A stretch of 41,610 nucleotides of DNA, from NCBI GenBank assembly GCA_023250205.1, contig JAHFBE010000007.1, positions 1-41,610 of the forward strand, written 5' to 3'. The notes under the pieces are model-generated. The model was not told the DNA's origin. It saw nothing but the letters and a program-made list of their open reading frames with translations, and made no database searches. The position numbers and the translations under genes are program-made. This document shows, one piece after another, positions 21,031 to 40,356 of this stretch. The stretch's first letter is position 1, and each line of letters starts with the position of its first letter. Source of the DNA: Candidatus Melainabacteria bacterium. Lineage in GTDB: Bacteria; Cyanobacteriota; Vampirovibrionia; 2-02-FULL-35-15.

Positions 21031-22257
21031 GTGTTTCTCAAAAAGTTAAAACTAGTTAACTATAGAAATTATTTGGATTTTGAAGGTAAATTTGACCATC
21101 TTAAAACTATTATTATTGGCCAAAATGCTCAAGGAAAAACAAATATCTTAGAAGCTATAAACATTCTTGCCACTGCTCACTCTAACAGGGCAGAACGAGA
21201 TAATGATCTGGTTTACTGGAACAAAGAGCATGCCTTAATCTTTGCAACAGTTCAAACTCAAAACTCAAATCTTGAAATTGCTCTTCAAATAAATACAACC
21301 GGTAGAAGAAAACTAAAAATTAATGATGTTCCAAAAAAAGCTCCACAAGCTGATCTTCTCGGAAATTTTTTTGCAGTAATGTTTTCCTGCGAAGACATGT
21401 ACTTAATAAAAGGTTCTCCTTCAATCAGAAGGAATTGGATTGATTCTGTATTATTCCAACTCGATTCCAAATATCATAGGTTAACTCAAGACTATCAGAA
21501 ATCAACAACACAAAAAAACTCTCTTCTAAAACAATCTTTTGAATCAGGACTGTCAAGAAAAGCTCTTAAAGAACAAGTTGAAATTTGGAATAATCAAATC
21601 ATCAATTCTGGCAGTGAGATTCTTGCAACAAGACTAAAATTTCTAGAAGATATTCGTCCGATTACAAGAGATTTTCAAAAGAACATATCAAAGCAAAACG
21701 AAAATCTGGATTTGATCTATAAGTCTACTGTTCAACTACCTGATTGTGTCATTGCGAGGAGCTTTAGCGACGAAGCAATCTCACAAAAACAATATCGGTC
21801 AAATGAGATTGCTTCACCTTCGGTTCGCAATGACAAAGAAACATTAAAATCAAGATTTAAGAAAGCTCTAGATGAATCATTTGAGGCAGAACTGGCAAGA
21901 GGACAATCACTAATTGGTCCACATAGAGACGATTTACTTTTTCTTATTAATGACAAAGAGGCAAAATCATTTGCCAGCCAAGGACAACAAAGATCAATAG
22001 TTCTTGCTTTAAAACTTGCCGAATTAAAAATTATCGAAAAAAGAAGAGGGGAAATTCCTGTTTTATTATTAGATGATGTATTTGCTGAGCTTGATGAGAG
22101 CAGGCAGGATTTTTTATTACATAATTTACCAAAAGATATACAAACCTTTCTAACTACAACCCATTTGAGTGGTATTCAAAAAGAATTTTTAAGAGGAGCA
22201 CAAATCCTGGAAATAAGAAATGGACAGCTTGTTGAAAGTGCAGAATGTGGTGTATAA
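21031..22257 (+). CDS. recF: RecF, DNA replication/repair ATPase, carrying a palindromic-repeat insertion
   Basis: A 408-residue SMC-like ATPase that helps load RecA at single-strand gaps through RecFOR. GQNAQGKT (residues 30-37) is the Walker A motif, GPHRDDL (about 296-302) and SQGQQRS (317-322) are RecF signatures and VLLLDDVFAELD (344-355) is Walker B. The start is GTG at 21031. Residues 240-268 (VIARSFSDEAIS to RND) are encoded exactly by an 87-base palindromic repeat also found between genes in this window. Removing them leaves 379 residues, close to the family norm of about 360-380, so the insertion lengthens the protein without breaking the frame. It is followed by the DUF721 gene and gyrB. 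Confidence 0.95.
   Translation: MFLKKLKLVNYRNYLDFEGKFDHLKTIIIGQNAQGKTNILEAINILATAHSNRAERDNDLVYWNKEHALIFATVQTQNSNLEIALQINTTGRRKLKINDVPKKAPQADLLGNFFAVMFSCEDMYLIKGSPSIRRNWIDSVLFQLDSKYHRLTQDYQKSTTQKNSLLKQSFESGLSRKALKEQVEIWNNQIINSGSEILATRLKFLEDIRPITRDFQKNISKQNENLDLIYKSTVQLPDCVIARSFSDEAISQKQYRSNEIASPSVRNDKETLKSRFKKALDESFEAELARGQSLIGPHRDDLLFLINDKEAKSFASQGQQRSIVLALKLAELKIIEKRRGEIPVLLLDDVFAELDESRQDFLLHNLPKDIQTFLTTTHLSGIQKEFLRGAQILEIRNGQLVESAECGV
21748..21834. repeat. GTCATTGCGAG-family palindromic repeat inside recF
   Basis: An 87-base element (29 codons) with outer arms GTCATTGCGA / TCGCAATGAC-type and inner arms GAAGCAATCTCA (21772-21783) / TGAGATTGCTTC (21804-21815). The same arms occur in the intergenic copies at 34399-34527 and 40264-40356. 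It is in frame with recF, and its first base is the first base of codon 240. Confidence 0.9.
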
Positions 22258-34398: not shown

Positions 34399-34527
34399 GT
34401 CATTGCGAGGAAGGACAAAGTCCTGACGAAGCAATCTCACACTAAGATACCGCTCGCAAGGTTCCCTCATAAACAGTATTGGAAAATGAGATTGCCGCGT
34501 CGACACTTCGTGTCTCCTCGCAATGAC
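34399..34527. repeat. GTCATTGCGAG-family palindromic repeat (intergenic)
   Basis: A 129-base element bounded by GTCATTGCGAGG and CCTCGCAATGAC. It contains AAGGAC-AAA-GTCCT, GACGAAGCAATCTCA, a variable centre, then TGAGATTGC and GACACTTCGTGTC. These pieces correspond to the recF copy at 21748-21834 and the copy at 40264-40356. The centre is longer here. Confidence 0.9.
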
Positions 34528-38847: not shown

Positions 38848-38858
38848 GTCATTGCGAG
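38848..38858. repeat. Half-copy (outer arm only) of the GTCATTGCGAG repeat
   Basis: GTCATTGCGAG occurs alone, nine bases before the ATG of the pmbA-like gene, in the position of its ribosome binding site. No matching right arm follows. It may be the remnant of a repeat or a chance match of 11 bases. Confidence 0.5.
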
Positions 38859-38867
38859 CCGAATAAA

Positions 38868-40151
38868 ATGAACTTAAAAGAACTTCAAAAAAAGTACAAT
38901 CTCTCTGATTTAGAATTATTCAGCCAGGATACCGCTACACATAAGATTTCATTCTCTGCAAATAAGATAAAACAAGCAGAATCTACATATACATCCGGCA
39001 ATTCAATCAGATTGATAAAAGATAAGAAAATAGGATTTTCTGCAAATTTTGGAAACTTTGATCTAGACACCATTGTTAGTCGAGCTGTTCAGGCATCAGT
39101 ATTTTCTCCGACAACAAGCATTGAATTTCCAGGTAAACTACAAAAACTTGAAGATATACAAAGTAATAATAATGACTCATTGTCTACTTTTGCAGAGAAT
39201 GGAAAAGAAATTATTGAAGAGATTTTATGCCAAGCTCCAAATGTACTTGCAGACATTACCTTTGAAACAAATCATATAAATGAAAAAATTGAAAACACAA
39301 AAGATTTAATTTATTCAAACTCAAAAAAAATATACTCATTTTCAATCAATATCAAAGAGACTTTAGAGAATGATTTCTTTGATATTTTTACTGCTGTTGT
39401 AGACGATAAACTTCCTAACTGGGCTACTGTTTCAAATGAACTTGTTAATTTCTACAAGCTATCTAAAAAAAGTGCAAAGATTAAAAACGGCTCATTCCCA
39501 ATAATATTTACAAGCAAAGCAGCAAAAGAATTATTAGACATCGTAGAGCTTGCACTAAACGGTAAACAAGTAGTTCAAGAATCGTCTCCCTGGCATAACT
39601 TACTTGGAAAGCAAGTGTTGAGTAAGTTACTTACTATAAAACAAGATCCATCTTATGGTTACTTAGCAAGAGCAGTAGATGATGAAGGCTGCATAATAAA
39701 GCCTTTAACATTAATAAATAATGGAGTACTTGAGAATTTTTACTTTGATTTAGTAACTGCCAGTAGGGATCGGTCTCGACCGATCCCTACTGGGAATGGT
39801 TTTAAACCTTCTCTAACTTCCCAGCCAGAACCTGCCTTATTAAATATGATTACTTCAATTGGTTCTCGTTCATTAAATCAAATAATAAAAGATATTAATT
39901 ATGGTTTATTAATTGATCAGACAATGGGCGGACTAACTACAAATATTTCAGGTGATATGTCTGTAAACGTCGATATTGGATTTTTAATTGAAAAAGGCAG
40001 AATTGTAGGAAGAGTGAAAGATACAATGGTTACCGGAAATATTTATACTGCCTTAAGCAACATTCTTGAACTATCAAATGATTTAAAACAACAATGGTCC
40101 CATATTTATAACCCTGATATGTTAATTGATGGACTTACTATTACTTCATAG
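38868..40151 (+). CDS. PmbA/TldE-like protein (TldD/PmbA metallopeptidase family)
   Basis: A 427-residue protein of the TldD/PmbA family. WHNLLGKQVLSKLLTI, YLARAVDDEGCI, LINNGVLENFYFDL and GLLIDQTMGG with ISGDMSVNVDIGFLIEKGRI and VTGNIYTALSNI match the conserved C-terminal half. The HExxxH zinc motif of TldD is absent, which makes it the PmbA/TldE type; in E. coli the heterodimer with TldD degrades unfolded peptides and processes microcins. No tldD partner is in view. Residues 298-309 (ASRDRSRPIPTG) are encoded by a 32-base palindrome where the family usually has an 'ARK-like' segment before S-T-G-N. The start is ATG at 38868. Confidence 0.88.
   Translation: MNLKELQKKYNLSDLELFSQDTATHKISFSANKIKQAESTYTSGNSIRLIKDKKIGFSANFGNFDLDTIVSRAVQASVFSPTTSIEFPGKLQKLEDIQSNNNDSLSTFAENGKEIIEEILCQAPNVLADITFETNHINEKIENTKDLIYSNSKKIYSFSINIKETLENDFFDIFTAVVDDKLPNWATVSNELVNFYKLSKKSAKIKNGSFPIIFTSKAAKELLDIVELALNGKQVVQESSPWHNLLGKQVLSKLLTIKQDPSYGYLARAVDDEGCIIKPLTLINNGVLENFYFDLVTASRDRSRPIPTGNGFKPSLTSQPEPALLNMITSIGSRSLNQIIKDINYGLLIDQTMGGLTTNISGDMSVNVDIGFLIEKGRIVGRVKDTMVTGNIYTALSNILELSNDLKQQWSHIYNPDMLIDGLTITS
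39761..39792. repeat. Perfect 14-base-arm palindrome inside the pmbA-like gene
   Basis: CAGTAGGGATCGGT, loop CTCG and ACCGATCCCTACTG. It is a GC-rich hairpin in an AT-rich gene and unlike the GTCATTGCGAG family. The reading frame continues through it. Confidence 0.92.
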
Positions 40152-40263: not shown

Positions 40264-40356
40264 GTCATTGCGAGGAAGGACGAAGTCCTGACGAAGCAAT
40301 CTCAAGAACGTTAGGAGATTGCCACGTCGGCTCTTTTAGAGCCTCCTCGCAATGAC
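40264..40356. repeat. GTCATTGCGAG-family palindromic repeat (intergenic)
   Basis: A 93-base element bounded by GTCATTGCGAGGA and TCCTCGCAATGAC-type arms. It contains AGGACGAAGTCCT, GACGAAGCAATCTC, then GAGATTGCCACGTCG and a GGCTCTTTTAGAGCC hairpin. It lies between the convergent pmbA-like and HD-domain genes, in the place where a bidirectional terminator would be expected. Confidence 0.9.

Follow-up and report, generated by a model that had tools for sequence, protein, structure and literature searches.

A dispersed palindromic element in frame within recF of a Melainabacteria genome, and other repeats at the protein loops that it occupies

Palindromic repeats that reside in frame within protein-coding genes are represented by the elements of Rickettsia, the RPEs (PMC10969869; PMC3733652); nearly half of the 44 R. 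conorii RPE copies first reported sit in ORFs (PMC10969869). In PMC3733652, intragenic REPs are described from several species, many of them in repair genes, and in recB a similar position is taken by one REP in X. campestris and by a different one in X. oryzae. The CGTC- and GTAG-tagged intragenic REPs of that study (Di Nocera et al. 2013) are short palindromic units forming inverted pairs and lying in coding regions, including those of ligase, recBCD and uvr; a CGTC unit has a CGTC/TGTC/CCTC tag, a stem of 8-9 bp starting with AT, a loop of 4-5 nt and a CCA-like tail. REPINs and MITEs mobilised by RAYT are inverted pairs of REP-like units with high copy number and an extragenic bias. In the mitochondria of Nematomorpha, inverted repeats lie within translated genes (PMC6649704). 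With the tagged REPs the element described here has in common inverted pairs of short palindromic units within coding regions, a ligase gene included; with the RAYT-mobilised repeats, the inverted pairing, the high copy number and the extragenic bias; and with the Nematomorpha palindromes, inverted repeats inside protein-coding genes.

The sequence studied (the window) is a stretch of 41,610 nt from a Candidatus Melainabacteria draft genome (assembly GCA_023250205.1, contig JAHFBE010000007.1). On its plus strand the recF ORF (21031..22257; GTG start, 408 aa) stays open through an 87-nt palindromic element (21748..21834, plus strand), which is in frame, starts at the first base of codon 240, occupies codons 240-268 and encodes VIARSFSDEAISQKQYRSNEIASPSVRND. 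The outer arms, GTCATTGCGAG (21748..21758) and TTCGCAATGAC (21824..21834, with one mismatch against the complement of the left outer arm), enclose the inner arms GAAGCAATCTCA (21772..21783) and TGAGATTGCTTC (21804..21815), all given on the plus strand. The first-pass annotation of this DNA had described an element of 87 bases with outer and inner arms, making exactly 29 codons from codon 240 and adding 29 residues to RecF; the sequence reads exactly so, and without the insert RecF would have 379 aa. Identification of the host is supported by Pfam (SMC_N/AAA), by phmmer matches to the RecF structures 5z67 and 2o5v, and by Foldseek, whose top matches are RecF structures.

The element is beyond what chance would produce: its folding energy is -33 kcal/mol, compared with -16.2 for shuffled sequences (z -5.8), arm matches in the window number 7 against 0.22 expected, and the genome contains the arm GTCATTGCGAG 289 times as an exact copy but its reversed control not once. 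Two extragenic copies of the same family, at 34399..34527 (129 nt, z -8.0) and 40264..40356 (93 nt, z -9.5), agree with the earlier statement that the element occurs in non-coding gaps as well; both have a cloverleaf-like fold made of a closing stem, two small hairpins and a long central stem. A single arm (38848..38858, plus strand) lies directly upstream of an ORF starting at 38868. This ORF (38868-40151), PmbA/TldD-like as judged by reading its sequence, contains the second coding palindrome of the window, which is of a different family: a 34-nt near-perfect GTAG...CTAC palindrome (39760-39793) with a 16-bp stem and a 2-nt centre, in frame and encoding ASRDRSRPIPT.

The genome to which the window belongs (G000) is a Melainabacteria-type draft MAG of 2.08 Mb in 83 contigs, 86.5% complete, and the comparison genomes are likewise all drafts or MAGs; the nearest named relative found was Candidatus Melainabacteria RIFCSPHIGHO2_02_FULL_34_12. 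Stretches around nearly all copies were taken, with 279 of the 289 exact arms inside them, and yielded 136 paired elements of 74-149 nt. With these numbers and with fold z values from -5.8 to -9.5 the element behaves as a dispersed palindrome. Some 18% of these paired elements (about two dozen) are intragenic, the extragenic position being clearly favoured. The arm was present in 10 of 10 relatives of the same family (9 to 122 copies) and was patchy elsewhere in the class. Searched against plasmids, the element matched in three places only, over short parts of its length and including Halomonas and Methylocystis, and a second copy had no match; element strings sought in the literature matched unrelated primers only. 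We consider it highly probable that the recF segment is a copy of a REP/MITE-like palindromic element that is dispersed and has expanded in this family of Melainabacteria, and that it is kept in frame in a tolerant loop.

No transposase was found adjacent to the element, and the mobility that we propose is therefore read from copy number and from presence and absence among genomes. RAYT as a mobiliser is not supported: in contrast to RAYT-mobilised REPINs, these genomes yielded no RAYT gene with the repeat on its flanks, G000 being incomplete. Matches to Y1_Tnp were few, mostly weak and without a flanking repeat (one weak match in G000, with no arm nearby; eight in relatives, with an arm near just one). 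As expected of the CGTC REPs of PMC3733652, the outer ends of the element read (N)GTC followed by AT; a stem of 8-9 bp with a loop of 4-5 nt is not clearly recognisable in half an element. The cyanobacteria of that study had GTAG, not CGTC, repeats. Nematomorpha differ in that both arms of their palindromes encode conserved residues (PMC6649704), while the element here is extra, variable sequence.

For the intragenic copies we used a cut-off of at least 80 open codons on each side in one frame. Such flanks were found for 20 of the 136 paired elements, and all 20 are open and in frame; this was the outcome of the genome-wide arm search that the first-pass annotation had proposed. Extragenic copies read in random strand and phase are open in 23%, so that the chance of 20 out of 20 being open is ~1.6e-13, before a length in multiples of three is required. 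Phase 0 is open in 32% of extragenic copies, and the frames of the element are thus partly open by nature; selection for frame is strong, yet it is one factor among others. These counts bear on the possibility that the segment is never translated, the ribosome skipping it (as with the byp elements of Magnusiomyces mitochondria) or a small intron- or intein-like process removing it. The strong structure of the element would suit such a reading, and bypassing of intragenic palindromic elements has been reported from the mitochondria of Magnusiomyces capitatus (cited in PMC6649704). A segment that is skipped or spliced out, however, can contain stops and can be of any length, whereas all 20 long-flanked copies are open and in frame; decayed copies in relatives are also in frame, and an Rfam search returned tRNA only, with no intron family at the recF site. 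We therefore hold skipping or removal to be very improbable, and the pattern of frames argues for translation of the insert.

There are no convincingly broken genes among the hosts of the element. Two candidates for gene-breaking copies, C48:22920-23010 and C67:11533-11626, were rejected, as their flanks belong to different genes, identified from sequence as lpxD|wecB and murE|aroE, respectively. At both of these boundaries the upstream frame ends within the element, and the murE|aroE arrangement is found in G001 too (L322).

Hosts in G000 were identified by Pfam or by sequence; Pfam supports the hosts, with several domains split at the insert, while Pfam returned nothing for two proteins, one on contig C19 and one on C56. 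Long-flanked copies lie in the genes for RecF, NAD-dependent DNA ligase (LigA), valyl-tRNA synthetase (ValRS), MetH, UbiD, a chorismate-binding enzyme (PabB/TrpE), MurT, MtnA, HemC, a class II aldolase, a SpoU methylase, a PrmC-like methyltransferase, a cytochrome, an SNase and large PKD-type proteins. Shorter flanks were observed in CCA nucleotidyltransferase, riboflavin synthase (RibE), NadD and, at another position, PrmC. MtnA is present twice in the assembly, as L023 (contig C7, 1152-2390, plus strand) and L170 (contig C70, 901-2103, minus strand); each gene carries two elements, whose positions agree between the two proteins and whose sequences differ. C70, a 6-kb contig, may come from a related strain. 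Partial replication with sampled copies gave paired elements spanned by long open frames in G042 (3), G001 (1) and G047 (3), the only broken candidate being, again, the murE|aroE boundary. As read from the flanking sequence, candidates for the spanned genes are PheT and an ABC exporter in G042 and RecJ in G001; the spanned ORFs of G047, some of them with no Pfam match, are less convincing.

Comparison of relatives revealed sites without the element as well as sites with decayed copies. An alignment of RecF, as the first-pass annotation had advised, has a gap at residues 240-268 in G002, G004, G005, G007, G009 and G010, where the element is missing. RecF of G002 (77-79% identical) is 29 residues shorter there and keeps GCAATGAC at the site, possibly a footprint of the element, while G001, of the same genus, has a degenerate in-frame copy of ~48 nt. 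For ValRS, G000 and G002 have the insert, and the site is empty in G001, G003, G005 and G009. In LigA the insertion is common to several genera, being filled in G000, G001 and G003, reduced to a 30-nt remnant in G009 and absent from G002 and G005. The UbiD insert is filled in G000 and G001, and G001 retains in-frame remnants in MurT (36 nt) and in the class II aldolase (short). Empty sites were seen for RecF, ValRS, LigA, RibE and TrmL; net insertion and arm-to-arm length differed only slightly (116 to 117 in ValRS, 87 to 93 in LigA, 110 to 123 in TrmL), and no target-site duplication could be defined, the sites being too diverged. Inserts of different length at a single site all keep the frame, a pattern difficult to account for if the segment were not translated.

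The same comparison decides on an artefact of assembly or binning, in which a repeat was wrongly joined into recF. Repeats often fall at contig ends in this draft, as several copies do; still, the frame is intact on either side of the recF insert, and an artefact is excluded, save for a vanishingly small chance, because independent assemblies share the insertion sites (RecF in G001, LigA in G001 and G003, ValRS in G002, UbiD in G001).

The annotation had also placed the insertion in a surface loop. An AF2 model of RecF, the sole host modelled, built on a four-sequence alignment (mean pLDDT 80.4, pTM 0.82), has 236-266 as its only segment with pLDDT <50, between a strand (228-232) and a helix (269-282). 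The phmmer alignment to 5z67 breaks at the insert, between query residues 234 and 268, where the template has six residues; the loop is about 6 residues long in RecF structures that have been solved. For RecF, low pLDDT together with the short template loop supports the surface-loop placement, and the model predicts a disordered loop between strand and helix.

The protein positions of the element are, in relatives, often the site of repeats of another kind, namely perfect palindromes of 28-30 nt, an ATTCCC...GGGAAT repeat and 7-8-nt tandem repeats. RecF has a 30-nt perfect palindrome, TGAAGATGAACATAATTATGTTCATCTTCA, in G003 and GGGCAGGTCATGACCTGCCC in G008. GTAG...CTAC palindromes of 28-33 nt were found in HemC (G001), the CCA enzyme (G009) and PrmC (G005 and G009), the ATTCCC...GGGAAT repeat at the second PrmC site in G005, and tandem repeats of 7-8 nt in HemC (G005 and G009), UbiD (G005), MurT (G002), TrmL (G009) and the aldolase (G002). 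The sites (5.6 kb in all) contained 12 inverted repeats with a stem of at least 8, compared with 39 in the 86 kb examined elsewhere in the same genes (P 4e-5), and for tandem repeats the counts were 6 against 4 (P 9e-6), for sites selected as filled in G000, with 8 codons added on each side of the interval and with counts within one site not fully independent. The plain reading of these sequences is that the sites of the element are indel-tolerant loops and that repeats are what is locally available for insertion. More tentatively, and with somewhat less than even confidence, we suggest a standing process in the lineage, in which a defined set of permissive loops of essential enzymes is repeatedly filled, emptied and refilled by several unrelated repeat families, so that insertion and decay of repeats would be the main source of change in the length and sequence of the loops. 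Palindromes of 28 nt, GTAG(N20)CTAC, are also in frame in several genes of G005 and G009 (L212, L211, L223, L197, L244), and in ValRS and the CCA enzyme of relatives this family is seen at additional positions.

Could the insert have been co-opted, e.g. to change what RecF does or how DNA is repaired, a role that Di Nocera et al. proposed speculatively where REPs lie in repair genes? The hosts do include genes of repair and replication (RecF and LigA, with RecJ in G001 by sequence reading), REPs are found elsewhere in ligase and recBCD/uvr genes (PMC3733652), and the insertion in LigA extends over several genera. Most hosts are otherwise employed, however (ValRS, HemC, RibE, MtnA, UbiD, NadD, PrmC); length and sequence of the insert vary among relatives, unrelated repeats occupy the same sites, the UbiD inserts of G000 and G001 differ mostly at amino-acid-changing sites, and the RecF insert is predicted to be disordered. 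Co-option thus appears very unlikely, and the inserts are probably neutral.

Under the explanation that we prefer, a dispersed element retained in frame, two inverted units would close a cruciform or cloverleaf of about 75-150 nt, and copies would land genome-wide. Intragenic copies would survive only as whole codons, without a stop, in an insertion-tolerant protein loop. The recF copy would be translated as a disordered loop of 29 residues, its flanking strand and helix preceding the GPHRDD signature. With no required sequence, the insert would decay and lose whole codons as it shrinks, and its place may be taken by other repeats.

The comparison with Rickettsia made in the first-pass annotation is apt as to mechanism, the likeness being one of mode of action. 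Like the Rickettsia elements (RPE-1, RPE-4, RPE-6 and others; Ogata, Claverie), the one studied here is palindromic, dispersed, both inter- and intragenic, and in frame in unrelated conserved proteins; it is stop-free in conserved genes, has empty sites and, for RecF only, falls in a surface loop. It differs in its host, which belongs to the Melainabacteria and not to the Alphaproteobacteria, and in that the same loops of relatives are occupied by other palindromes and by tandem repeats. We found no earlier report of such repeats in Melainabacteria; the phenomenon is a known one in a new lineage, with unusually clear re-use of loops.

Rickettsia, with its small genomes, is the best-known setting for palindromes inserted in frame. 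The present case extends this to a sister lineage of the cyanobacteria, where the hosts include core enzymes, among them NAD-dependent ligase, valyl-tRNA synthetase and porphobilinogen deaminase. The inserts mark loops that tolerate 28-41 added residues, a property useful to protein engineering, and they should be masked in gene prediction and phylogenetics of these MAGs. Among the relatives, sites that are empty, filled, decayed or refilled make up natural series, in which the passage from selfish DNA to protein sequence can be traced step by step.
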